A stretch of 64,000 bases of DNA from the NCBI RefSeq assembly GCF_900105725.1, contig NZ_FNLM01000034.1:3038001-3102000 (forward strand), read 5' to 3'. The notes beneath the pieces were generated by a model. The model was not told the origin of the DNA, made no database searches, and saw nothing but the letters and a program-made list of their open reading frames with translations. This DNA comes from Gordonia westfalica. GTDB lineage: Bacteria; Actinomycetota; Actinomycetes; Mycobacteriales; Mycobacteriaceae. This document shows positions 30,479 to 45,625 of this stretch, one piece after another (positions within the stretch are counted from its first letter, which is position 1; each line of letters starts with the position of its first letter). Made by a program: the position numbers and the translations under genes.

Positions 30479-31738
30479 CTAGATGCTGATGCGACCTTCG
30501 AGAGCGTTGCGCCCGATGTCGGTGCGGAAGTGCGAGCCCGGCAGCTTGATCTTCTCGATCCGCGCGTAGGCCTGGGCGCGGGCCTCGGCCAGGTCGGCGC
30601 CGGTACCCACGACGGCCAGCACGCGACCACCGGCGGAGACGACGGCACCGTCGGCGTTCCTGGCGGTGCCGGCATGCAGCACACCGTCGGCGTCGGCGCC
30701 GGTGATGATGTCACCGGTACGCGGCTTGCCGGGGTAGTTCTCGGCGGCGACGACCACGGTGACCGCGGCACCGTCGTGCCACCGCAGCGGCGGGAGGTCG
30801 GCGAGCGTACCGGTGGCGGTGGCGTTCAGCGCCTCGCCGAGCGGCGACTCCAGCAGCGCGAGGACCGCCTGGGTCTCGGGATCGCCGAAGCGGCAGTTGA
30901 ATTCGACGACGGCCGGGCCGTCCTTGCCGATCGCGAGGCCGGCGTAGAGGAGACCCGAGAACGGGATGCCACGCTTGACCAGTTCGGCCGCAACGGGTTT
31001 GACGACCTCATCGACGATCCGCCCGGTCATCTCGGCGGGCAGCCAGGGCAGCGGCGTGTAGGCGCCCATGCCACCGGTGTTGGGTCCGGCGTCGTTGTCA
31101 CCGACGCGCTTGTGGTCCTGGGCGGGCAGCAGCGGGACCACGTTCTCGCCGTCGACGAGGCAGAACAACGAGACCTCGGGTCCGTCGAGGAAGCTCTCCA
31201 GCAGGACGGGATGTCCGCTCTCCAGGCACTCGGCCGCGTGATCGCGGGCGACATCCCGGTCGGGCGTGACGACGACGCCCTTGCCGGCGGCGAGGCCGTC
31301 GTCCTTGACCACCCAGGTCGGACCGAAGCGGTCGAGGGCAGCGTCGAGATGCGCCGGGTTGTCGACGATCTCCGCATGCGCGGTCTTGACGCCGGCCGCG
31401 GCCATCACGTCCTTGGCGAAGGCCTTGGATCCCTCGATCTGCGCGGCCTGCGCGCTCGGACCGAAGGTCGCGATGCCTGCCTCGCGCAGCGCGTCGGCGA
31501 CGCCGAGGACGAGGGGCACCTCGGGTCCGATGATGACAAGGTCGGCTTCCAGCTTCTGCGCCAGGGCCACGACCGCCTCGCCCGACACCACGTCGACGGC
31601 GTGGTTCGAGGCGATCGCCGAGGTTCCGGCGTTGCCGGGAGCGACATGCAGGTCGGTGACCGACGGATCGTTCTTGAGGCCGATGAGAAGGGCATGTTCG
31701 CGGCCGCCCGAGCCGATCACGAGTACGCGCACGACCAT
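30479..31738 (-). CDS. purD: phosphoribosylamine-glycine ligase
   Basis: GAR synthetase, 419 aa, ATP-grasp enzyme of step two of purine synthesis. The opening [15 protein letters not shown], the ATP-binding stretch [15 protein letters not shown] and the signature [14 protein letters not shown] are all present. Start ATG 31738 ([12 protein letters not shown]); the longer frame adds only a non-conserved stretch. Confidence 0.97.
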
Positions 31739-31820
31739 GACTCTAAACGACCGGGATGCTCGCTCACGCCGGCCGGCCCCGACCACCTCGTCGACGATCA
31801 CCATCAGCACCGGCGCCGGC

Positions 31821-33848
31821 TCAGGTCCTCGTCTGGGTCAGGTCGTACATAGTGACCCCGTCGACCGTCACCGCGGTGAAGTTCTCCTGAACCCACGCGC
31901 TGATCTGCGACGCCGGACGTTCGGAATCCGTGCCCATGCCGTCACCGCCCATGCCCGGTGCGCCCATACCCGGTCCGCCACCGCCGCCGAGGAACCAGTG
32001 GATCTTCTTCTCGGCGACCAGCGTCTGGAACTCGGCGAGGGTCGGCGACGGATCACTGCCGTTGAACCCGCCGATCGGCATCACCGAGTGGCCGGTCTCG
32101 AGCTGGTAGCCCGAGGCGGACATCGACCCGACCGCCGCGGCCACCCAGGTGTACCGGTCGGCGTCGGCGTTCAGCTTCTCGACGACGGCGGCGGCGGGCG
32201 TCGAACCGCGCAGCAGGCCACCGGAGCCGTCGCCGCCGCGACCCCCGGGCGTCCCCTGACCACCGGGGTACCCCTGGCCTCCGGGCATCCCCTGACCGGG
32301 GGCTCCCGGCATGCCGCGACCGTCGGGGCCGCCTCGTCCGCCCGGGCCGAACTCGCCCTCGACCCGCGGGCCGGCGGTGATGATCGATCCGCTCTTCTCC
32401 GTGGTCACCGTGTCGACGGTGTAGGCCACCGGACCGGCGAGACCGGCGAGGATCGCACCCGCCACCGCGGCCGCCGCGACGCCGCGCAGGTTCGCGAAGA
32501 CCATCGCGGCACCGGCGAGGAGGCCGATGACGATTACGGCCCAGCGCAGCCACGGCACGAAGTCGGGAGTGCGGTTCAGCAGGACGAATCCCCACACGGC
32601 CGCGATCCACACGGAGGCACCGAGGGCGAACCGGACCCAGAGACGATCCCGATGCGACCAGCAGACTGCGGCACCACCGGCGACCAGCGCGGCGACCGCC
32701 GGGGCGAGGGCTGCCGTATAGTACTGGTGGAAGATGCCGGCCATGAAGCTGAAGACACCCATCGTGACCAGCAGCCACATCCCCCAGACCGTGAGGTACG
32801 CGCGGCGCGGATCGGTCCGCCGGGCCCGGCCGATCAGGACTGCCGCGACGACGGCGAGCAGGACACCGGTCGGGATGAGCCACGCGATCTGACCGCCCTG
32901 TGCGGGTTCGAACATCCGCAGCCATCCGGTCTCGCCCCACGGGCCGCCACCGCCACCGCCGGGGCCACCGGGACCGCCGCGACCACCGGGGACCACTGCG
33001 CCGGTCTCGTTGCCGTTCAGTCGACCGAGACCGTTGTAGCCGAGAGTGAGCTCGAGGATCGAATTGTTCTGCGAACCACCGATGTAGGGCCGCGACGACG
33101 CCGGCCAGAGTTCGACGGCGAGAATCCACCAGCCGGCACTGACGACCATCGCACCGAGTGCGGCGAACATCTGGCCGAGCCGCCGCAACCAACCGCGCGG
33201 GCCGAAGGCCAGATAGGTGACCGACAGCGCGGGCACGATCAGCATCACCTGCAGTTGCTTGGTGAGGAATCCGAATCCGACGAACACGCCGGTGAGGATC
33301 AGCCAGCGCCACCGGCCGTCGTCGACCGCCTTCATCAGCGACCAGACGGCCGCGATCATCAGCAGGATCAGCAGCGCCTCGGGGTTGTCGAAGCGGAACA
33401 TCAGCGCCGCAACCGGAGTCAGCGCCAGCACCGCGCCGGCGAGGATTCCCGATCGGTGGCCGAAGTACTTTCGCGTGATCAGGTACAGCAGCGCGACCGA
33501 TGCCACCCCCATCAGGACCTCGGGCACCAGGATCGACCACGGGTTGACCCCGAAGATCCGCGCACTGAGACCCGGAATCCACAGGGAGGCGGGAGGTTTG
33601 TCGACGGTGATCGAGTTCGCCATGTCCGACGACCCGAAGAACCACGCTTTCCACGACTCCGAACCGGCCTGGACGGCCGCCGAGTAGAAGGAGTTCGCCC
33701 AACCGTTGATCGAGAGATTCCACAGGTAGAGGACCCCGGTGCCGATCAGCAGCGCGGCCAGCGAGAGCCGCTCCCACAGAACGTTCTTCGCCTGTGCCGG
33801 CGCCTGCGGAGCGGAGTCGACGGGTGGGTCGATGGTCAGTGTCGTCAT
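31821..33848 (-). CDS. GT39-family (ArnT/YkcB-like) membrane glycosyltransferase with Gly-rich loops
   Basis: A 675-aa polytopic membrane protein. The N-terminal part has the dolichyl/polyprenyl-phosphate mannosyltransferase-like pattern, with [12 protein letters not shown] after the first large loop, [16 protein letters not shown], and about 10-12 helices to residue 490. The C-terminal extracytoplasmic part carries low-complexity Gly/Pro/Met loops (about 283-300, 501-548 and 620-636). It probably moves a sugar from a polyprenyl-phosphate donor to an envelope acceptor. The upstream GT2-GtrA gene overlaps by 4 bp and probably makes and flips that donor. Confidence 0.85.
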
Positions 33849-35098
33849 GCGGCGGACTCCTGGGTCTTGCGGAACACCCAGCGGAGACCGACGAACCGGG
33901 TGAGCGTGGCCACCAGGTTCGCGATCACCAGGATGATCAGTTCGATGTGTTTGGTCGCGTCCGGCGCGACGGTGTGCAGCAGCAACAGTGAGCCGGCGGT
34001 GACGAGCCAGCCGAACAGGAACACTCCGAGCCCGAACAACTGGTGGCGCAGCGCATTGTCACGTCCGCGCACCCCGAAGCTGAACCTGCGGTTGGCCGCG
34101 GTGTTGAGAACAGCGGTGATCGCCAGGGCGACCAGGTTCGAGATCTGCGCTCCCAGGAACGAGTGCAGCGCGAGGAACAGCACCGCGAACGCGGCGGTCG
34201 ACGCCACGCCCACCACGCAGAACCGCGCGAGCTGGCCGACCAGTCCCCTCGGCACCCCGTCGATCTGGGGTCCGGCCGCCCGGTCGCGACCGATGGAAGC
34301 GCGGAGCTGGGCGATCGGCAGCCGCCCCATCGCCAGCGCGAGACCGACTCGCGCACAGCCCTTCAGATCGGCGAGGGCGGTGGGCACGATGTCGACGGTG
34401 CTGTCCGGGTCGTCGACCCAGTCGACCGGGATCTCCGCGATCCGCAGCCCGATCTGTTCGGCGAGCACGAGCAGCTCGGTGTCGAAGAACCACCCGGTGT
34501 CGGCGACGAAAGGCAGCAACTCGCGGGCGATGTCGGCGCGCATGGCCTTGAACCCGCACTGCGCGTCGGAGAACCTGGCGCCCATCGCCGTTCGGAGGAT
34601 GAGGTTGTAGGACCGCGAGATGAACTCCCGCTTGGGTCCGCGGACGACACGCGACGACCGGCTGAGCCGGGTGCCGATCGCGATGTCGGAATGCTTCGAC
34701 ACCAGCGGCGCGATGAGCGGCATCAGCGCGTTGAGGTCGGTGGAGAGGTCGACGTCGCAGTACGCGACGATCTCGGCATCGCTGCGCTGCCACACCGCGT
34801 TCAGCGCACGACCACGACCCTTCTCGTCGAGGTGGACGACGCGGACGCCGTCGAGTTCGTCGACGAGGCCGACGGCGATCGCGACGGTGTCGTCGGTGCT
34901 GGCGTTGTCGGCGACGGTGATGCGGGCCGGATACGGCACGTGCCGGCGCAGATGGCCGGCGAGCCGGCGCACCGACGACGCGAGGTCGGTCTGCTCGTTG
35001 TAGACGGGGACGACGATGTCGAGGACCGGGGTCGACACCGAACTGTCGGCGAGCGTGTACACCTGCGCCGTCCGGTCCGGCGGTGCTTGGGGAATCAT
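33845..35098 (-). CDS. bifunctional GT2 glycosyltransferase / GtrA-like protein
   Basis: A 417-aa fusion. Residues 20-250 form a GT-A domain like dolichol-phosphate mannose synthase: DIVVPVYNEQTDLA, TVADNASTDDT, YCDVDLSTD (DxD) and DAQCGFKAMRADIA. Residues 290-410 form a GtrA domain with four helices (FCVVGVASTAAFAVLFLAL, TAANRRFSFG). GT2 charges a polyprenyl phosphate and GtrA is thought to help flip it. The ATG at 35098 is preferred; the frame is open to 35191. Upstream is a PhoP-box-like array. Operon with the GT39 gene. Confidence 0.85.
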   Translation of the reverse strand: MIPQAPPDRTAQVYTLADSSVSTPVLDIVVPVYNEQTDLASSVRRLAGHLRRHVPYPARITVADNASTDDTVAIAVGLVDELDGVRVVHLDEKGRGRALNAVWQRSDAEIVAYCDVDLSTDLNALMPLIAPLVSKHSDIAIGTRLSRSSRVVRGPKREFISRSYNLILRTAMGARFSDAQCGFKAMRADIARELLPFVADTGWFFDTELLVLAEQIGLRIAEIPVDWVDDPDSTVDIVPTALADLKGCARVGLALAMGRLPIAQLRASIGRDRAAGPQIDGVPRGLVGQLARFCVVGVASTAAFAVLFLALHSFLGAQISNLVALAITAVLNTAANRRFSFGVRGRDNALRHQLFGLGVFLFGWLVTAGSLLLLHTVAPDATKHIELIILVIANLVATLTRFVGLRWVFRKTQESAA

Positions 35099-35132
35099 GA
35101 GGACCACGATCTGTCCCCACCCTCGAACCGGT

Positions 35133-35160
35133 CTGGAACCCGGCTGCCAGGTTCCTGTGA
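35133..35160 (-). promoter_or_regulatory. PhoP-box-like array of three 11-bp repeats upstream of the GT2-GtrA operon
   Basis: On the minus strand the sequence reads TCACAGG-AACC-TGGCAGC-CGGG-TTCCAGA: three 7-mers with CAG in the same place, repeating every 11 bp (plus-strand CTG at 35155, 35144 and 35133). The leading TTCACAGGAACCT is almost the same as the one upstream of phoP. The mycobacterial PhoP box, as I recall it, is two TCACAGC-type heptamers separated by 4 bp. The array ends 35 bp before the gene start. Confidence 0.6.
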
Positions 35161-35203
35161 ACCGTCGATCTGCGTTGTCGGGCGTCGCCACTACATTGGG
35201 TTC

Positions 35204-37315
35204 ATGGTTGCCACCCTCTCCCCCGACCAGCTGACCGCCGCCAACCGCGTCATCACCAGCCTGGCCGGTGAGGGCGCCGCGCTGCGCGAGGATCAGCTGC
35301 GGGCGGTCACCGCACTGGCCGGCGGTGAGCCCGGCACTCCCGGCGCACGGGTCCTGGTGGTCCAGGCGACCGGATGGGGCAAGTCGGCGGTCTACTGGTC
35401 GGCCACCGCGATCATCCGGGCCGGCGGCGGCGGGCCGACGCTCATCGTGTCCCCGCTGTTGTCGCTCATGCGCGACCAGGTGGCCGCCGCGGCCCGCGGG
35501 GGGCTCTCCGCGGCGACGCTGAACTCGTCGAACGTCGACGAGTGGTCGGCGATCGAGGCGCAGCTGCGGGCGGGAGATCTCGACGTCCTGCTGGTGTCAC
35601 CGGAACGCCTCGCCAATCCCGGCTTCGGACGCCGCGTGCTCGACGCACTGGCGGGCAATCTCGGGCTGCTGGTGATCGACGAGGCGCATGCCGTCTCCGA
35701 CTGGGGACACGACTTCCGGCCCGACTACCGTCGTGTCGCCGATGTACTCCGTTCGGTCAACCCGACGACGCCGGTCCTGGCCACCACCGCCACCGCCAAC
35801 GCCCGCGTCACGGAGGACGTCGCCGCGCAGCTCGACTCCGGTTCCGACGCGCCGACGCTCGTCCTCCGCGGTCCCCTCGCCCGAAAGTCATTGCATCTCA
35901 ACGTTCTCGACGGACTCTCGCCGGTGCAGCGATACGGCTGGGTGGCTCAGTCCCTCACCCATCTCCCGGGCTCGGGCATCGTCTACGTCCTCACCGTCGC
36001 CGACGCCGACCGGCTCGTCGAAGCCATCCGTGCGGTGCACGGGGACTCCGTCGAGGTCGCGGCCTACACCGGGCAGCTCGACGCCGACCGCCGGCACGAA
36101 CTCGAAGATGCGTTGCTGCACAACAAGGTCAAGGCACTCGTGGCGACATCGGCGCTGGGGATGGGTTATGACAAGCCGGACCTGGGCTTCGTCGTGCACG
36201 TGGGTTCGCCGCCGTCGCCGGTCTCCTACTACCAGCAGGTGGGCCGTGCCGGGCGCGCGCTGGACGACGCCGTCGTGATGCTGCTGGCCTCACAGACCGA
36301 CGACCGGATCTGGGATCACTTCGCCACCGCGACGATCCCCGATCCGGACAAGATGCGTGACCTCCTGGCGGCGCTGGAAGCCGCCGACGAGCCGCAGTCG
36401 GTCATCCAGCTCGAGGCCGCCACCCGCTTCCGCCGCACGCGAATCGAGTTGATGCTCAAGCAACTCGCCGTCGACGGCGTCACCGACCGCACCCCCGACG
36501 GCTGGGTCGCCACCGGCAAACCCTGGACCTACGACGCCGCCCACTACGACGGCGTACTCGCCGTCCGTCGCCGCGAGGCCGACATCATGCGCACCTACAT
36601 CGCCGGGCGCACCTGCCTGATGCGTCTGCTGACCGAGTCGCTCGACGATCCGCAGGCAGCCGACTGCGGTCGCTGCTCGGTGTGCCGGGGCGCGCTGAGC
36701 GAGGGCCTTCCCGACGCCGTCGACGCCGAGATCGTCCGCACCGTGACGTCGACGCTGCGCCGCAAGGCATCGACCCTCGACCCGCGGAAGATGTGGCCCG
36801 GCGGCGAATTCGGCCGTCGCGGAAGGATTTCCGCCGACCTCCTCGCCCACCCCGGCCGCGTCCTGGCCCATGCCGACGCACCCGAATGGGTGGAGGTGCT
36901 GGCCGCGGCCCGCAACGGCGACGAGCGTGCACTCGGCGAACTCGGCGACGCAGCGGTCGCGACCCTCTCGGCCTGGGTGCGCGAGACCGGTGTCCGCGCC
37001 GACGTCATCGTGTCACTGCGTCTGACCGGCACCACCCTGGCCGAGACGCTCGCCGAGCATCTGCGCACGGTCGGCAAACGCGGCGGCGGAACGTTCCCCG
37101 TCCGCCCGGGCGATCCGCCCACCGACGCGACCGGCGCCGTCGAGGCCGCCTACTGGCGCGATCACCTCGGCGATGCGCCCGAGGTCGCCGGCCAGAACGT
37201 GATGCTCGTCGTCGACGCCAACAGTTCCGGCTGGCCGATCACCCTCGCCGCCGCGGCACTCCGCGAGGCCGGGGCGAACGCGGTGTTGCCGTTGCTGATC
37301 CACCGCACGGTCTGA
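35204..37315 (+). CDS. recQ: RecQ family ATP-dependent DNA helicase
   Basis: A 703-aa 3'-5' helicase. Helicase motifs: EDQLRAVTALAGG (motif 0 region), ATGWGKSAVYW (I), SPLLSLMRDQ (Ia), VIDEAHAVSDWGHDFRPDY (II), ATTATAN (III) and YYQQVGRAGRA (VI). The RecQ zinc region follows with CGRCSVCRG near residue 490. The last 200 residues have no HRDC domain that I can recognise and end with a phosphoribosyltransferase-like DANSSGWPITLAAAAL stretch, as in mycobacterial homologues. Start ATG 35204. Confidence 0.92.
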   Translation: MVATLSPDQLTAANRVITSLAGEGAALREDQLRAVTALAGGEPGTPGARVLVVQATGWGKSAVYWSATAIIRAGGGGPTLIVSPLLSLMRDQVAAAARGGLSAATLNSSNVDEWSAIEAQLRAGDLDVLLVSPERLANPGFGRRVLDALAGNLGLLVIDEAHAVSDWGHDFRPDYRRVADVLRSVNPTTPVLATTATANARVTEDVAAQLDSGSDAPTLVLRGPLARKSLHLNVLDGLSPVQRYGWVAQSLTHLPGSGIVYVLTVADADRLVEAIRAVHGDSVEVAAYTGQLDADRRHELEDALLHNKVKALVATSALGMGYDKPDLGFVVHVGSPPSPVSYYQQVGRAGRALDDAVVMLLASQTDDRIWDHFATATIPDPDKMRDLLAALEAADEPQSVIQLEAATRFRRTRIELMLKQLAVDGVTDRTPDGWVATGKPWTYDAAHYDGVLAVRRREADIMRTYIAGRTCLMRLLTESLDDPQAADCGRCSVCRGALSEGLPDAVDAEIVRTVTSTLRRKASTLDPRKMWPGGEFGRRGRISADLLAHPGRVLAHADAPEWVEVLAAARNGDERALGELGDAAVATLSAWVRETGVRADVIVSLRLTGTTLAETLAEHLRTVGKRGGGTFPVRPGDPPTDATGAVEAAYWRDHLGDAPEVAGQNVMLVVDANSSGWPITLAAAALREAGANAVLPLLIHRTV

Positions 37316-37340: not shown

Positions 37341-38708
37341 TCACCGGGCCAGCGCGAGCACCTCGTCGAACCCGTCGACGAGGCATGCGTGGAAGAGATC
37401 GACGTCCTCGATCGCACCGGTGTCCACGTCGATACCCAACTCGCAGGTGTCGACGTAGGTGAGGAGGGTGACGTTGACCGCCGCCCCGATGGTGGGGCCG
37501 AAAGCGTACTGGGCGCGCAGCCGGGCGCCGCAGAGGTAGAGCGGCACGGGGATACCGGGGACGTCACTGCAGAGGAAGTCGACGTGTCGCAGGACCGACC
37601 CGATGTACCAGCGCGGCATCAGGTTCATGGCGCCGGCGATCCACTGGGTATACGGCAGCGAACGCTCGTTGCGGACACGTGAGGTCCGCCGGTGGATCCT
37701 GGCGATCCGCTGCGCCGGATCTGCCTCTGCGACAGGCACATCGAACCTCATCAGGGTGATCCGGTTGCCGCCGGGGGCATCGTCCTCGGTGCGCAGATTC
37801 ACCGGCATGCACAGATGAAGGTCTCCGACCTCGGCGCCGTGCTTCTCGTGGTACAGACGGAGGCCTCCGGCGACGCCGGCGACGAAGGCGTCGTTGAGCG
37901 AACCACCGCCACGATGCCCGGCGTCGCGGAGTTGCTGCAGCGGGACCTGGTGGACGTCGAGGTGCCGGACCAGCGACCGGTCCGTCATCAGCGACGATCC
38001 GGTGTCATTGACCGGGCGAACCGTGCGGTATACCGACGCGGCGGTCTCGACGGCGGCACCGGCTGTCGCGAGCGGATGGCGAATCGTGTTGAACGCCAGA
38101 CCCGGTACCGATCTCACGAGCCCCGTCACGGTGTTCGACGCGCGGGCGGCGTCGAATCGCAAGGAGTCCAGATAGTCCCGCCACCAGGCCTCGTCGTTCG
38201 ACGGCAATGCGGACTCGGGTGCGGCCGGCGGCTGGTCGGTCTCCTCGGTCAGGTCGAAGAGCCGCATCGCGATCTCGATGGCGCCGACACCATCGGTGAG
38301 CGCGTGATGGAACTTGCAGACGACCGCGGCACCACCGTCGGCCAGACCGTCGACCAGGGTCGCCTTCCACAACGGACGGGCGCGGTCGAAGTCCTCCATC
38401 GCGGCGATCCGCGCCATCTCCAGCACGGTGTCGACGGTGCCCGGCGCGGGTGCGCTGACCCGGCGCATGTGGAAGTCGAGGTCGAAATCCTGGTACGGGA
38501 CCCACCGCGGCGGCGCCGACAGCGGCGAGTAGACGACGCGCTCGCGGAACATCGGCAGGTCGGCGCTGATGGTCTCGAACCGGCTGCGCGTCGCTTCCCA
38601 GTCGGGTGTGCGCTCCAGCAGGATCACCGTCACGACCGTCGATCTCAGGCGCGGGTCGGACTCCATCGCCCAGGTGAAAGCATCACTGTTGCGCATGTAC
38701 TCGGTCAT
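37341..38708 (-). CDS. WS/DGAT family O-acyltransferase (wax ester/triacylglycerol synthase)
   Basis: A 455-aa bifunctional wax ester synthase/diacylglycerol acyltransferase, the last step in storing neutral lipid. The catalytic HHxxxDG motif is H134-H135-A-L-T-D-G. Other family marks: the opening MRNSDAFTWAMES, PLWKATLVDGL, GGSLNDAFVAGVAGGLR and the C-terminal CSDVPGIPVPLYLCGA. Triacylglycerol storage is common in Gordonia and Rhodococcus. A single gene, transcribed away from recQ. Confidence 0.93.
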   Translation of the reverse strand: MTEYMRNSDAFTWAMESDPRLRSTVVTVILLERTPDWEATRSRFETISADLPMFRERVVYSPLSAPPRWVPYQDFDLDFHMRRVSAPAPGTVDTVLEMARIAAMEDFDRARPLWKATLVDGLADGGAAVVCKFHHALTDGVGAIEIAMRLFDLTEETDQPPAAPESALPSNDEAWWRDYLDSLRFDAARASNTVTGLVRSVPGLAFNTIRHPLATAGAAVETAASVYRTVRPVNDTGSSLMTDRSLVRHLDVHQVPLQQLRDAGHRGGGSLNDAFVAGVAGGLRLYHEKHGAEVGDLHLCMPVNLRTEDDAPGGNRITLMRFDVPVAEADPAQRIARIHRRTSRVRNERSLPYTQWIAGAMNLMPRWYIGSVLRHVDFLCSDVPGIPVPLYLCGARLRAQYAFGPTIGAAVNVTLLTYVDTCELGIDVDTGAIEDVDLFHACLVDGFDEVLALAR

Positions 38709-40503: not shown

Positions 40504-41346
40504 ATGAGTGATGCAGTTGACTTCGAGGACTATCTGAAGTCGTTGGGACGGTTGACCTCTCACGTCGACCCCACCGCCTCCACACCGGAGGCCGAGCGGA
40601 TCGTCGAGGCCACCGGAAGCCTCGGCGGACTCCTCGACACCGACCTCACCGGGCTTGCAGCATGGGTGCGCGACAACCCCAATGACGTCCCCGTACTCGG
40701 ACTCGCGGTCGGGTTGTCGCAGGAGAAGCTCAAGAATGCGCTGCGCGATCACTTCGACACCAGCGGCTGGCACGGCCTGGCACGCACCCAGCCCGTCGAA
40801 CTGGTTACCTGGCTCGACGCGGAGTTCGACCTCGTGCGGATGCTGCGCACCCAGATGGAACGCACCTACACCTTCGCCGACATCCTAGTGGCCCGCGCCG
40901 GAACCCGCGCCACCGCGACCCGCGCCGGGGCGTCGGGCCGGCGGATCGAGGACGAGATCGAGGACATCGCGCGCGACCTCGGCCTGAACTACACGACCCG
41001 ATCCCGATTCGCCGGACGCAACGGACGCACGGCCCCCGCCGACTTGATCGTCGGCGACCCGAACTCCGCCGACATCGTGGTGGCCGCAAAGGGTTTCGAT
41101 TCGACGGGGTCCAAACTCACCGACGCCGTCCGGGAGATCGAGGAGATGGCCGAGGTACGTCTCCCCACCCAGCTCGTGCTCGCGGTGATCGACGGAATCG
41201 GCTGGAAGTCACGACAATCCGACCTTCGCCGCATCCACCAGTTGTGGGCCACCCGTCAGATCGACGGCATGTACACCCTCGTCACCCTCGACCGGTTCCG
41301 CACTGACGTGGCCGAGTTCGCTAGGTTGCGGAGGTTGATCAGCTGA
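40504..41346 (+). CDS. putative DpnII-like type II restriction endonuclease
   Basis: A 280-aa protein. The C-terminal half resembles the PD-(D/E)XK core of DpnII-type enzymes: a helix [12 protein letters not shown], an acidic residue in PADLIVGD (about 180), [10 protein letters not shown] (about 192) and then GSKL (about 202) at the start of the following helix. The usual ExK reads AAK here. The methylase 10 bp upstream supports a restriction role; the target (GATC for DpnII itself) is only a guess. Its stop overlaps the 3' end of phoR by 8 bp. Confidence 0.7.
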
Positions 41347-42850
41347 GGAGCGGCAGGCGAACCCAGAAGGTCGCGCCCTCACCCGGCGTCGATTCGACGC
41401 CGACCCGGCCGCCGTGCGCTTCCACGAGCGCGGCGACGATGGACAGCCCCAGGCCGTTTCCACCGCCCGAACCACGGTGGCGTGACTCGTCACCGCGGTA
41501 GAACCGCTCGAAAACGTGCTCGGCATCCTCCGGGGTCAGCCCTTGTCCGGTGTCGGCGACCGTCAGCACCGCCTCAGACCTGCCATCCGAGTCGTCGACC
41601 GCGACCCCGACCGTGATGGATGCCTCGGCGGGCGTGTGGTTGACCGCGTTGCCGATGAGGTTGCGCAACACCTGCAGGAGCCTCGGCGCGTCACCGGACA
41701 CCACCGGCGGTTGGTCGCCGGGCGTCACCTCGAGCCGGATGTCGCGTTCGGGCGCGGCGACCCGCGCCGACTGCACGGCGTCGGCGGCCAGGCCCAGCAA
41801 GTCGACGGGTGCCGTGGCGATGGGACGCTGCACGTCGAGACGCGCCAGCATCAGCAGGTCCTCGACGAGCAGGTTCATCCGTCCCGCCTCGTCGTTGATC
41901 CGCCGCATCGCGTCCGTGACGTCGGGAACGCCGCCCTGCGAATAGAGTTCGGCGAAACCCTTGATCGACGTCAACGGGGTACGGAGTTCGTGGCTGGCGT
42001 CGGCGATGAAGCGTCGCATCTCCTCCTCGGAGGCGCGGGCCTGTCGTTCCGACGCCGCGGTGGTGGCGAAGGCCTGCTGGATCTGGCCGAGCATCGTGTT
42101 CAGCGAATCCGACAGGCTGCCGACCTCGGTGTTGGGCGCGGCCGGCGGAACTCGCCGCGTGAGGTCGCCGGCCGCGATCGCGTGTGCGGTCTCCTCGACC
42201 CTCCGGAGGGGGCGGAGACTGGTCCGCACCAGCAGATAGCTGAGAACCCCGATGAGCACCACGACGACGACGCCGATGGCGAACTGCAACCAGATCAGCC
42301 TGCTCACCGTGTCATCGATGTCGGACATCGGGGTGGCCACGACGGTGGTGCCGAACATGTTGCTGTGCTTGATCACCCGCCACTGCGGACCATCCGCCTC
42401 GGCCGATCCGACGGTGACCGGTCCGACGTTGTCACCGGTCAGTCCGGTCAGATCCGGCGAGTGGTCGAACTGGTTGTAGACACTGACCGCCGAGATACCG
42501 CCCGGCCCTTGGAGAGTCGACTCCACGTAGTACGGCGACGGCGGACGGCGCGGCCCCGGCGGGCCGGAGCGCGGCTCGTTGGCCGGTGATCGCGGATCGG
42601 CCCACGTACGCGTGGCGTTGACCAGTCCTTCGTCCGCACGGGAGATGAGGTCCTGGCGCATCGACGAGGTGACCGCCACGCCGGAGGCCAGCAACCCGAC
42701 GACCACGAGAGCGAGCGTGAGTGCGACCAGGGAGAACCGCAGCGGCACACCGCGCTTGCGCGCCTGCGCCGTCGGCTGTGGCCGCGCATGGGACGCCGTC
42801 GGCTGAGGCCGCGCATGAGACGCCGTCGGCGGTGGCCCGGAGACGGTCAT
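41339..42850 (-). CDS. phoR: sensor histidine kinase PhoR
   Basis: A 503-aa two-component sensor. The N-terminus has a 9-residue tandem repeat (TASHARPQP), then TM1 (about 38-60), an extracytoplasmic sensor loop of about 120 residues with a Pro-rich stretch, TM2 ([14 protein letters not shown]), a HAMP domain, the dimerisation helix with [17 protein letters not shown] (phospho-His), and the ATPase domain with N ([11 protein letters not shown]), G1 (VADTGQGL), F ([10 protein letters not shown]) and G2 (GLGLSIV) boxes. The ATG overlaps the phoP stop (ATGA). Confidence 0.93.
42767..42834. repeat. 27-bp tandem repeat in the phoR N-terminus
   Basis: About two and a half copies of a 27-bp unit (beginning CGCCGTCGGC on the plus strand at 42767, 42794 and 42821) encode TASHARPQP on the minus strand. 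The frame is kept whatever the copy number, so copy-number change would lengthen only the cytosolic tail. Confidence 0.8.
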
Positions 42851-43572
42851 CAGTCGCGCGGCTCGCGCATCACGTAGCCGACACCGCGCAGGGTGTGGAT
42901 GAGACGCTTCTCGCCGTTGTCGAGTTTGCGACGCAGGTAGGAGACATAGGACTCGACGACGTTGACCTCGCCGCCGAAGTCGTAGTTCCACACGTGGTCG
43001 AGGATGCGGGGTTTGGACAGCACCGTCCCCGCGTTGACCATGAAGTAACGCAGCAGGGTGAACTCGGTCGGTGACAGCTGGACCGGTTTGCCGGCCTTGA
43101 AGACCTCGTGGGTCTCGTCGTCGAGTTCGATGTCGGCGAAGGTGATCCGCGACGAGGACTTCTGTTCCTCGTCGAATCCGCTGCGTCGCAGCAGGACCTG
43201 CAACCGGGCGACGACCTCCTCCAGGCTGAACGGCTTGGTGACGTAGTCGTCGCCGCCGATCGTCAGGCCGTTGACCTTGTCCGCGACCGAGTCACGGGCC
43301 GACAGGAACAGCGCGGGTGCCTCGACCCCGTCCGCGCGGAGACGCCGCAGCAGCCCGAACCCGTCCATGCCCGGCATCATCACGTCGAGGATCAGCACGT
43401 CGGTTTTGTTGCTGCGACACTTGTCGATCGCGGCGGGTCCGTCGGCGGCGGTGTCGACGTCGTATCCCTGGAACTTCAGCGACACCGACAAGAGCTCGCG
43501 GATGTTCTCCTCGTCGTCGACGACGAGGACCTTCGCGCCGCGCGCTTCGTCGTTCTTGGTCGGTCCACTCAC
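42850..43572 (-). CDS. phoP: response regulator PhoP (OmpR family)
   Basis: A 240-aa response regulator. Receiver domain: KVLVVDDEENIRELLSVSLK, phospho-Asp in VLILDVMMPGMDGFG, Lys in DDYVTKPFSLEEVV. Winged-helix output: LSPTEFTLLRYF, ILDHVWNYDFGGEVNVVESY and HTLRGVGYVMREPR. It is very close to the M. tuberculosis PhoP sequence as I remember it, which regulates envelope lipids and pH response. GTG 43572 is the likely start; the frame is open to 43617. A four-repeat array upstream suggests autoregulation. Confidence 0.93.
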   Translation of the reverse strand: MSGPTKNDEARGAKVLVVDDEENIRELLSVSLKFQGYDVDTAADGPAAIDKCRSNKTDVLILDVMMPGMDGFGLLRRLRADGVEAPALFLSARDSVADKVNGLTIGGDDYVTKPFSLEEVVARLQVLLRRSGFDEEQKSSSRITFADIELDDETHEVFKAGKPVQLSPTEFTLLRYFMVNAGTVLSKPRILDHVWNYDFGGEVNVVESYVSYLRRKLDNGEKRLIHTLRGVGYVMREPRD

Positions 43573-43594
43573 ACCGTCACTGTTCCAGAGTCGC

Positions 43595-43633
43595 CTGGAA
43601 CGTCCCTGGCCGGACACTGGGAGATTCCTGTGA
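43595..43633 (-). promoter_or_regulatory. PhoP-box-like array of four 11-bp repeats upstream of phoP
   Basis: On the minus strand: TCACAGG-AATC-TCCCAGT-GTCC-GGCCAGG-GACG-TTCCAGG. Four heptamers with CAG in the same place repeat every 11 bp (plus-strand CTG at 43628, 43617, 43606 and 43595). The spacing of one helical turn puts all four on one face of the DNA, as for OmpR-family dimers. The array ends 23 bp before the phoP start, so it may overlap the promoter. Confidence 0.65.
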
Positions 43634-43662
43634 ACGCCGACCTGCGGTTCGATCGGCGAAGC

Positions 43663-44349
43663 TCACAGCGTGGCGTCGCCGTAGGCGGCGGCGATGGCGT
43701 CCGAGCCGCGCCACCGTGAGTACGTGGGGCTCTGAGGCCACCCGGCGGGCGAGTCCTGCCATTCCTCCTGACGCCCCCACGGCAGGACGTCGAGAAGCCC
43801 GAACGTGAAACCGAGTTGTTCGGTCCCGCGGCCGGTCGTGTGCCACGTGCGGTAGACCGTGTCGCCGTCGCGGAGGAATACGTTGATCGCGAACCCCTCG
43901 CCCGGAGCGGCGTCGACGTCCGCGGAGAAGCTCGTGCCCGCCGACGAGTACCAGTCCATCCGGTTGCCGACGCGATTCTTGTAGGCCAACGCCTCGTCGA
44001 TCGGTCCGTGGGTGATGATCACGAACCGGGCGTCGTAGTCGGCGAGATAGTCGAGACGGCTGAACTGCGTCGTGTACCCGGTGCAGCCCGGGCACTGATA
44101 TTTCTCGCTCTCGGTCCACATGTGGTTGTAGACGATCAGCTGGGAAAGCCCGTCGAAGATGTCGACGAGGCGGATCGGACCGTCGAGTCCGGTGAGGATG
44201 TAGTCAGGCATCTCGACCATCGGCAGCCGGCGACGCTGCGCGGCGATCGCGTCGAGTTCGCGGGTGGCCGCTTTCTCGCGGACGCGCAGTTCCGCCAGGG
44301 CCGCGGCCCAGGTGTCGTGGTCGGTCAGGGGTGGAAGCCGATCGCTCAT
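43663..44349 (-). CDS. DUF899 thioredoxin-like protein
   Basis: A 228-aa protein of the DUF899 (AhpC/TSA-like) group. It has LIVYNHMW, then ESEKYQCPGCTGYT, where the CxxC-type pair sits in the thioredoxin-like fold, and RVGNRMDWYSSAGTSFSADV and TYSRWRGSDAI. Function unknown, presumed redox. Start ATG 44349 has a GAAAGG site; the frame is open further up. Confidence 0.88.
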   Translation of the reverse strand: MSDRLPPLTDHDTWAAALAELRVREKAATRELDAIAAQRRRLPMVEMPDYILTGLDGPIRLVDIFDGLSQLIVYNHMWTESEKYQCPGCTGYTTQFSRLDYLADYDARFVIITHGPIDEALAYKNRVGNRMDWYSSAGTSFSADVDAAPGEGFAINVFLRDGDTVYRTWHTTGRGTEQLGFTFGLLDVLPWGRQEEWQDSPAGWPQSPTYSRWRGSDAIAAAYGDATL

Positions 44350-44410
44350 GACGGTGCCTTTCGGTGATCGCGGGGGTCCCGCAGAGGCAGACCGCGCCGG
44401 AGCGTTCAAC

Positions 44411-45625
44411 TCATCGTTGCCGCATGTACGGGGCGGCATACCCGATCTTCATGGAGGTGTCGCCGAGCCACGCCGCGAGTTCCTCGGCCCGCGCGTCGAG
44501 TTTCCTCCGGGCCGCGGCCGGCAGGGGTTCGAGCGGGTGGATCGCGATCGAGTTGTCATCCCGGCGATACCAGCCGCCCACGATCCGGCCGTCCCACCAC
44601 GCGGTCTGGCCACCGTTGCCCACCGAGTCGAAGATCTGGGGCCGGTGGTCGCCGAGGTAGAAACCGCGCTCCTTGAAACCCATCGTGGTGGGGTCGAGTT
44701 CGGGCAGCAGCACCGCTTGTGGTTCGCAGTCCTCGTCGTCCCCGTTGCCGTGGTCGCCGGGAAGGTCGTCGGGCAACACGTGGCCGACGCCGCCCCCGTG
44801 CAGATCGCCACCGTCGAGATCGACCTCGACGGTGCCGAGGTCGGCGAGCGCGGCCCGCACCGCGGTCTTGGTGGAGCCCAGCCACCACACGAGGTCGGCC
44901 TCGGTGCCCGGACCGTACGTGCGCAGCCAGCGTTCGATGAGTGCCCGGTGTCCGTCGTGCACGCTCGGCGCGTCAGGGGTCTCGCCGAGCCACACCTTCA
45001 TCGACGTCCACGCCGGGCGGGACAGGTGCCAGTCGAAACGGTTGGGCCCGCGGACGATGTCGCCGGACGCGTCGAGCATGTTGAGGACCCGCGGGCCGAA
45101 ATGGCTCTTGCCCGCCCACGACTTGCCCTCGCCGAACGTGATCGATCCGTCGAGCGCGGGCAGCCGGCTGCGGAGTTCGGTCGACGTGAGTGACTCACCG
45201 CCGGCAAGCTCGGTGAGGACCGCCTCCCGCGCGGCCTCGATCCAGCCCTCCGGGTCGTCGACGTCGGGGCTGCGCCGGAGATCGCGGAGCATGTTGGTGC
45301 GCTCGGAGGCCGAGATGCGGGGGCCGAGCGCGCCGATCGCCTCGGCCAGGACGTCGCGCGGGAAGGCGAAGAGGGTCCGGCGCATCGCGAGATGTTTGAC
45401 GAGGGTCCGGTCGTCGTACAGCGCGGTGTCGATGTCGGCACGGGTCAGGCCGTCGACGCGCGCCCACGCGGACAGGTACACCGTCGACGGCGTGGTGGCG
45501 TGGAGGCCGACCATCGTCTCGGCCGCTTCGACGGCGGACGACGCTCGCGACGCGGCGTCGAGATGCATGCGGCGCATCAGCCGGGACCGGCGCTGGGTGT
45601 CGGTAATCCGCGGGCGCACTGGCAT
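44411..45625 (-). CDS. winged-helix DNA-binding domain protein (HTH_42/YcaQ-like)
   Basis: A 404-aa protein of the large winged-helix family that includes DNA glycosylase-like YcaQ/AlkX. It has MVGLHATTPSTVYLSAWARV, RTLVKHLAMRRTLFAFPRDV, LIERWLRTYGPGTEADLVWWL and WWDGRIVGGWYRR. These positions match the family; the substrate or DNA-repair role is not established for actinobacterial members. An acidic insert (PDDLPGDHGNGDDEDCE) lies near residue 285. Confidence 0.85.
   Translation of the reverse strand: MPVRPRITDTQRRSRLMRRMHLDAASRASSAVEAAETMVGLHATTPSTVYLSAWARVDGLTRADIDTALYDDRTLVKHLAMRRTLFAFPRDVLAEAIGALGPRISASERTNMLRDLRRSPDVDDPEGWIEAAREAVLTELAGGESLTSTELRSRLPALDGSITFGEGKSWAGKSHFGPRVLNMLDASGDIVRGPNRFDWHLSRPAWTSMKVWLGETPDAPSVHDGHRALIERWLRTYGPGTEADLVWWLGSTKTAVRAALADLGTVEVDLDGGDLHGGGVGHVLPDDLPGDHGNGDDEDCEPQAVLLPELDPTTMGFKERGFYLGDHRPQIFDSVGNGGQTAWWDGRIVGGWYRRDDNSIAIHPLEPLPAAARRKLDARAEELAAWLGDTSMKIGYAAPYMRQR

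Follow-up and report, generated by a model that had tools for sequence, protein, structure and literature searches.

PhoPR is best known for regulating virulence in Mycobacterium tuberculosis, and a repeat array in front of a glycosyltransferase operon of Gordonia westfalica raises the question of whether the same two-component system also governs decoration of the cell envelope. We analyzed a stretch of 64,000 nucleotides from this genome (G000:C34:3038001-3102000), which is called the window below and in which all positions are counted unless another stretch is named. A preliminary description of the window, made from the sequence, had noted three repeats at exact 11-bp steps at positions 35133–35160, had likened them to a segment upstream of phoP, and had predicted that the GT2-GtrA/GT39 operon behind them belongs to the PhoP regulon. 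Throughout, PhoP denotes the regulator of the M. tuberculosis PhoP type and not the phosphate regulator PhoB.

Repeat arrays in the GT2-GtrA and phoP promoters

On the minus strand, positions 35160–35133 read TCACAGGAACCTGGCAGCCGGGTTCCAG; CAG occurs at offsets 3, 14 and 25. The array begins 62 bp 5' of the GT2-GtrA start codon and contains three CAG cores at exact 11-bp steps, followed by a degenerate fourth; the corresponding 7-bp boxes are TCACAGG (35154–35160), TGGCAGC (35143–35149), TTCCAGA (35132–35138) and the degenerate TTCGAGG (35121–35127), all on the minus strand. The phoP promoter, read on the same strand from 43633 downwards, is TCACAGGAATCTCCCAGTGTCCGGCCAGGGACGTTCCAG, and contains four CAG with the same period as the GT2 array, in the boxes TCACAGG, TCCCAGT, GGCCAGG and TTCCAGG (43594–43633). 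The reported likeness of the two cores is real, as seen by comparing TTCACAGGAACCT (35149–35161, minus strand) with TTCACAGGAATCT (43622–43634, minus strand). The count of three repeats given for both segments holds for the GT2 array, apart from its degenerate fourth box, but not for the phoP array, which has four.

The regulator encoded at 42850–43572 (minus strand), with receiver and Trans_reg_C domains, is orthologous to M. tuberculosis PhoP over its full length and lies 8 kb from the GT2 array. When it was compared with PDB chains using phmmer, residues 10–239 matched M. tuberculosis PhoP (9ji3, 3r0j/5ed4) with 392 bits, whereas the highest-scoring full-length chain with a different name, PrrA, reached 177 bits. 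The adjoining phoR gene (41339–42991, minus strand, given as the longest open reading frame) encodes a sensor histidine kinase with HAMP, HisKA and HATPase domains, and its true start probably lies further downstream than that of the longest frame. M. tuberculosis PhoP has been described as binding 7-bp direct repeats for which a strict 4-bp spacer is required, three or four motifs being bound more tightly (PMC4832192); a 7-bp repeat with a 4-bp spacer yields the 11-bp period found here. At least two such repeats with this spacer would be expected of a PhoP operator, and the GT2 promoter has three good boxes and one degenerate box, in a genome that encodes the cognate PhoP and carries the motif at the promoter of phoP itself. 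The boxes at 35133–35160 are very probably a PhoP binding site. A DUF899 gene (43663–44439) immediately precedes phoP in the same orientation, and a relative of it is found near phoPR in several other Gordonia loci.

Occurrence of the pattern in the window and in the genome

The preliminary description considered it unlikely that two promoters would share core and period by chance. The 13-mer on which this was based, searched with at most two mismatches, had 3 matches in the window compared with 0.85 expected, and 5 of 100 shuffled sequences also reached 3, so that the 13-mer is only mildly unusual. The bare pattern CAG(N8)CAG(N8)CAG had 4 matches, compared with 0.44 per first-order Markov window; these were two frames of the phoP array, the GT2 site and a site at 37723 inside a WS/DGAT gene. 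The last of these, on the minus strand of the window, falls outside the refined pattern described next and is probably due to chance. The refined pattern TCACAGNAANYTNNCAGN8CAG had 2 matches in the window and none in 100 Markov windows, although it had been drawn from these and related sites and this test was not blind. In the whole 6.4-Mb genome, it matched without mismatch at two places only, the GT2 site and the phoP promoter, and with up to two mismatches it gained one more array (C34:2358457, two overlapping matches), the reversed control having 3 matches. A looser pattern, CACAGN8CAGN8CAG, showed no excess in the genome (5 matches versus 7 for the reversed control), and the bare CAG period was accordingly dropped as genome-wide evidence.

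The refined pattern thus does not recur at many random coding positions, an outcome that would have spoken against the proposal, whereas the looser pattern performs no better than its control. By itself, the evidence in the window is suggestive, and since the looser pattern does not exceed its control, conservation in other genomes is decisive.

Conservation of the array before GT2-GtrA genes

We collected named loci that contain a GT2 relative, each with flanks of up to 10 kb. The 80 loci used are the best of 563; close relatives are over-represented among them, and they are not independent of each other. The closest GT2 among the named loci was that of Gordonia sp. 'Campus' (89% identity), although very near records may be left out of this comparison. 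A phoP orthologue (>70% identity) was present on 31 of the 80 stretches, including those of Gordonia (11/12), Williamsia (2/2) and Rhodococcus type (11/14), and loci from Mycobacterium, Aldersonia and Antrihabitans. No phoP orthologue was found on the fetched stretches of Nocardia and Mycobacteroides within these flanks, and the array was nevertheless present before GT2, a recurrence that supports membership of the operon in the regulon. In the 280-bp pieces upstream of GT2, the distances between CAG trinucleotides peaked at 11 bp and its multiples: pairs at 11 bp numbered 76 in the 32 loci with a nearby phoP and 102 in the other 49, while no distance from 5 to 40 outside the multiples of 11 exceeded 14 pairs.

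We then scored the loci with a matrix trained on 30 phoP-upstream arrays only (one from the window and 29 from these loci), that is, on a promoter other than that of GT2; one training array, from L047, had been taken one repeat out of register. Sites were ranked on both strands, typically over about 41,000 positions per locus, with the phoP region left out. Of the 81 loci scored, comprising the window and the 80 others, 70 had their top-ranking site upstream of GT2. In the window, the GT2 site scored 24.0 bits, compared with 8.0 for the next site and 31.4 for the phoP promoter, the GT2 array being the weaker of the two. The 11 loci without first rank were L051 and L057, which are of Rhodococcus type, L088 from Mycolicibacterium litorale, where the site ranked second, and L073, L077, L080, L081, L085-L087 and L089, which are Actinoplanes-, Pseudonocardia- and Cellulomonas-like records.

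A family-wide search yielded, by a hand count, matches with E of 6e-97 or lower in 95 of 151 genomes, and from this search we picked by hand 40 further GT2 upstream regions, one to three per genus. A score of 8 bits was reached by 25 of these 40, compared with none of 1410 control windows (705 pieces of L010-L089, both strands) and none of the 40 on the other strand; four of the regions repeat earlier loci, and without them the count is 21 of 36. Visual inspection of the 15 regions below 8 bits still revealed phased CAG and the usual layout in several, and one (L206) had the CGG form described below. The target promoter is thus conserved in both sets, which supports the view that the operator is not a local feature and that a PhoP-type site has been maintained across a large part of the mycobacterial group.

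The 69 GT2 promoters with a matrix score of at least 8 bits were aligned by the array. CAG stood at offset 3 in 68 of them, at offset 14 in 67, at offset 25 in 60 and at offset 36 in 40; within this fourth box, A at offset 37 (99%) and G at offset 38 (94%) were conserved more widely.

Two kinds of neighboring genes were also observed in these loci. At three Nocardia loci, a gene for a PhoR-like kinase (48–50% identity) lies directly upstream of GT2 (L046 8318–9829, L066 8412–9854 and L071 356–1840), and no PhoP relative was detected on these stretches at E 1e-3. At L073, L076, L077, L080-L082 and L086, from the Actinoplanes-, Pseudonocardia- and Cellulomonas-like records, genes for a PhoP-like regulator (51–55% identity) and a kinase lie beside GT2; GT39 also adjoins in most of them, and some have two CACAG repeats. 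From the latter loci, the link between the PhoP and GT2 genes may be older than the mycobacterial family.

Promoter layout

In the aligned GT2 promoters, the distances from the boxes to two downstream elements were nearly fixed. A predicted –10 element of the form GANNNT begins at offset 49 (GATCGT in the window, 35106–35111, minus strand), with A at offset 50 and T at offset 54 each in 97%, and [GT]ANNNT was present at this offset in 52 of 69 promoters. There was no peak for TANNNT, and this form was rejected in favor of GANNNT as the conserved element. The start codon, searched as [AG]TGA, was located at offset 62 in 53 promoters and at offset 61 in 13; the ATG at 35098 in the window has offset 62. 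The phoP promoters showed the same layout (A50 in 84% and T54 in 97%; [AG]TGA at offset 61 in 17 and at 62 in 8) among 31 rows, 30 of which are genuine, L030 being an artefact in which the stretch ends at the phoP start and the GT2 array was picked up instead. In the window, the predicted –10 element of phoP is AACAGT (43579–43584, minus strand), at offset 49 as for GT2.

The last box of the GT2 array ends 9 bp before the predicted –10 element. With a start site approximately 6–8 bp past this element, boxes 3 and 4 would lie at about –40 to –23, a position that fits the –35 region, the –10 element and the start site being placed here from conservation alone. The fixed spacing of boxes, GANNNT element and start codon points to an activator that reaches the –35 region, where it would touch the polymerase, and to an mRNA that is probably leaderless, starting at or next to the first codon.

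The glycosyltransferase pair

The first gene of the operon (33845–35098, minus strand) encodes a GT2-GtrA fusion (PF00535, PF04138), a predicted polyprenyl-phosphate sugar synthase with a GtrA membrane domain. It overlaps by 4 bases with the gene for a GT39/PMT_2 glycosyltransferase with a YkcB_C domain (31821–33848, minus strand), beyond which purD (30479–31810, minus strand) is a syntenic neighbor. The GT2 protein matches DPM synthase (5mlz, E 2.6e-7) and ArnC (9bhc, E 4.8e-6), and contains CDVDLSTD, which we take to be a DxD-type motif. For the GT39 protein, ArnT was the top match both by profile (5ezm, E 2.9e-7) and by fold (5f15, Foldseek rank 1, E 1.4e-8, with a moderate TM of 0.44/0.54), and the following fold matches were other GT-C enzymes, including the mycobacterial arabinosyltransferases Emb; the structure model had a pLDDT of 84 and a pTM of 0.87 and was built from 39 of 63 available sequences. 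The genome encodes one YkcB_C protein, and no close GT39a relative was found in it other than the GT39 of the operon.

A relative of polyprenyl-phosphate sugar synthases is thus joined to a GT-C transferase of ArnT fold, as judged by similarity and fold, and we infer from this the reaction, the use of a lipid-linked sugar and its transfer to an acceptor in the envelope. The pair is predicted to work like ArnC/ArnT while standing outside the curated families: the NCBIfam cut-offs for ArnC and ArnT were far from reached (32.9 versus 529 bits and 30 versus 567 bits), and the model of the polyprenyl-phospho-GalNAc synthase PpgS (NF058614) was likewise not passed (32.6 versus 370 bits). In enteric bacteria, the modification of lipid A with aminoarabinose by ArnC/ArnT is under the control of the two-component systems PmrA and PhoP. 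The Gordonia locus resembles that system in having a GT2 protein related to ArnC and DPM synthase, an ArnT-like GT-C enzyme and an OmpR-family regulator nearby, but its sequences are distant and its GtrA domain is fused to GT2. The YkcC/YkcB and YkoT/YkoS pairs of Bacillus subtilis also combine a GT2 protein and a GT-C enzyme in one operon, and PF24878 (YkcB_C) has matches in B. subtilis, one of 14 control genomes; a 2021 review lists the function of these pairs as unknown (PMC8035078).

Published expression of the syntenic pair

For three PhoR-deficient strains of M. abscessus subsp. massiliense, Belardinelli et al. (2023; PMC10715180) named MAB_0926/0927 as up among the genes that RNA-seq showed to differ in every strain, and confirmed MAB_0926 by RT-qPCR. 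In Mycobacteroides franklinii (L033), the gene order is GT2-GtrA, GT39, a class-V aminotransferase on the minus strand, a 351-aa AurF protein and a ferredoxin-reductase-like protein. Since MAB_0929 is described as a 351-aa AurF protein (PMC11925935) and MAB_0930 as a ferredoxin reductase (PMC10034137), MAB_0926/0927 are, by synteny, almost certainly the same GT2/GT39 pair. The M. franklinii counterpart carries TCACAGGAAACTCGCAGCGGCAACCCAG before GT2; the text consulted of PMC10715180 gives no binding site for the pair. MAB_0926/0927 are also absent from the list given there of genes that are down in a phoPR deletion at pH 5.7, from which PhoP may matter only when it is highly phosphorylated. 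A 2025 paper describes PhoPR mutations as raising glycosyltransferases of as yet unknown function (PMC11980365), and strong evolutionary pressure on phoR during chronic lung infection with M. abscessus has been reported (PMC10715180). The array would provide a direct and conserved reason why this pair of glycosyltransferases responds to defects in PhoR.

Proposed activation by PhoP and other explanations

The first rank of the site in most loci, the fixed spacing to the –10 element and start codon, and the syntenic pair in M. abscessus all favor the predicted membership of the GT2-GtrA/GT39 operon in the PhoP regulon. We infer binding of PhoP at 35133–35160 and the direction of control from these observations, and are confident of the explanation as a whole: a PhoP operator would activate the operon through a leaderless transcript, leading to lipid-linked sugar transfer to the envelope. 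Phosphorylated PhoP would bind head to tail on the three good boxes and the degenerate one, which, at 11-bp steps, would face roughly the same side of the DNA, the last of them extending into the –35 region; PhoP would activate transcription from the GANNNT promoter with the first codon at or beside the start site. The same layout would let PhoP activate its own gene, so that phoP and the GT2 operon would switch on together. The GT2-GtrA protein would then charge polyprenyl phosphate with sugar, the GtrA domain may help the charged lipid to reach the outer leaflet, and transfer of the sugar to an acceptor of the envelope would be the task of the GT-C enzyme; the predicted chemistry is thus that of a polyprenyl-phosphate sugar moved outside by an ArnT-like enzyme.

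Of the competing explanations, we consider repression of the operon by bound PhoP to be unlikely, yet the least unlikely of them. The phoP repeats of M. tuberculosis have been described downstream of the transcription start (PMC3413638), and binding near –35 can also block the polymerase; here, the boxes end before the predicted –10 element at the distance expected for an activator, and MAB_0926/0927 rise rather than fall in the PhoR-deficient strains (PMC10715180). Similarly unlikely, and marginally below repression, is that the array belongs to another regulator of the OmpR family with a similar motif, for example MtrA. Such regulators commonly bind repeats of 6–7 bp with 4-bp spacers (PMC10609481), and the PhoP helix is unchanged in the clade with CGG cores described below. 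The occurrence of the same array at the phoP promoter in the window and in 29 loci, from which the matrix that finds the GT2 site was learnt, argues for PhoP itself, as does the altered expression of the syntenic pair in PhoR-deficient strains (PMC10715180); moreover, a single further array within two mismatches in this genome is few for a regulator with a broad regulon.

The array also lies in the 105-bp gap between GT2 and a divergent gene for a RecQ-family helicase (35204–37315, plus strand), which it could serve from the other side. The boxes, –10 element and start codon are, however, oriented and spaced to GT2, and the helicase gene is present in only 13 of the 80 fetched loci (12 from Gordonia and L037), while loci of Rhodococcus, Nocardia and Mycobacterium without it keep the array. 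We therefore regard the helicase gene as a neighbor rather than a probable target, and its being the true one as very unlikely, although PhoP may have effects on both genes. L037 itself is a metagenome contig labelled Acidobacteriaceae that carries a Gordonia-like GT2/helicase pair, and the label may be wrong. As to mere chance similarity of the two promoters, the bare triple CAG is not rare, as its expected frequency, the extra site at 37723 and the looser genome-wide pattern show, and the 13-mer is mildly unusual, but the ranking by a matrix from other promoters and the clear separation of the further regions from their controls render coincidence negligible. Activation by PhoP is thus the reading that we retain.

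The kind of site is already known, and what is new is the target, the GT2/GT39 operon, and its breadth across relatives. The M. tuberculosis-type PhoP operators (phoP, lipF, pks2, fadD21 and msl3) share with it the direct repeats, the 11-bp period, an orthologous PhoP and autoregulation at phoP. They differ in that the arrays described here have three to four boxes in strict phase and at a fixed distance to the start codon, and a GT2/GT39 target is not named in the M. tuberculosis PhoP literature consulted. In the open-licence literature, mostly at the level of title and abstract, we found no description of an operator before GT2/GT39.

A clade with CGG cores

Two of the loci without first rank, L051 and L057 of Rhodococcus type, had no CAG boxes before GT2, and instead showed four TCCCGGG-type boxes at 11-bp steps (L051 9796–9834 and L057 9806–9905), with A50 and T54 of the –10 element kept and the start codon at offset 62 or 63. 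In one Rhodococcus-type genus, 6 of the 37 genomes, including those of L051 and L057, contained triple CCCGGGN5 arrays without mismatch. All 30 matches listed adjoin GT2 and, in three genomes, also phoP, and there was no other place in these genomes at zero mismatches. None were found in 13 other genomes (Rhodococcus type, Aldersonia and Antrihabitans), or in the genome of G. westfalica with one mismatch allowed. The phoP promoter of L051 mixes TCACAGG, TCACAGC and CCCCGGG, and the PhoP recognition helices of L051 and L057 showed no private change. CCCGGG is palindromic, and a different regulator at the CGG arrays is therefore possible. By comparison of the sequences, the core appears to have changed from CAG to CGG in this clade with the spacing unchanged, which provides a natural experiment in how the sites of a regulator change together.

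These observations lead us to a broader proposal, for and against which we see the balance as even. PhoPR of the mycobacterial group may be at root a switch for envelope glycosylation, whose oldest shared target would be the GT2 synthase with the ArnT-like GT39, an actinobacterial counterpart of PmrA/Arn, and the virulence targets of M. tuberculosis would have been added later. The Rhodococcus-type clade would then represent natural turnover of the operator, from CAG to CGG in one repeat after another at GT2 and, in half of the six genomes, at phoP, with the period, the –10 offset and the start codon held fixed. The link recurs in environmental Gordonia and Rhodococcus, in which the signal, the sugar and the acceptor can therefore be studied, and the role of PhoPR before virulence becomes a question that can be tested through such relatives.

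Further array sites in Gordonia

All 59 Gordonia genomes, that of G. westfalica included, had a match to the refined pattern within two mismatches, with 280 matches in total compared with 118 for the control pattern. Among the matches listed for G001-G032 with at most one mismatch (n = 73, counted by hand after dropping the double rows of L152, two of L155 and one of L154, and the own-genome row L092), 29 were located before phoP, 22 before GT2 and 9 before GT39 paralogues; the rest stood before an HtrA-like protease (2), a glycine-rich protein (1), a ferric-reductase-like protein (1) or no queried gene (9). The matches with two mismatches added eight GT39 sites and five sites near the glycine-rich protein, but these were fetched for recurring sequences and are not a fair sample.

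The GT39 paralogues with an array (PF13231) are of two types and are situated away from phoP and GT2 (L098, L125-L136, L145, L146, L175 and L179); in G008, G018 and G032, an array-bearing paralogue lies far from phoP on one contig. Boxes before paralogues so far from phoP independently support a link between PhoP and glycosylation. Together with the conservation at GT2, they strengthen the earlier suggestion that PhoPR controls envelope glycosylation, and the array thereby ties this system to cell-envelope decoration.

Arrays were also observed before an HtrA-like protease gene at two sites (L149 and L151), and near the gene for a glycine/methionine-rich protein without Pfam match at L137-L140, L142 and L153, one with a single mismatch and five with two. 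Those at L155 1450–1860 (G006) and L103 (G009) are near tiny open frames for very basic products, between rhomboid-like and PH-like genes as judged by eye, and a similar array occurs in G010 (L104). The third array of the G. westfalica genome (G000:C34:2358457-2358495; L092 1501–1539) has four repeats and is flanked by an ABC transporter gene on one side and two MspA-porin genes on the other; it points to the 3' end of an MspA-porin gene, away from the ABC transporter gene, and has a counterpart in G029.
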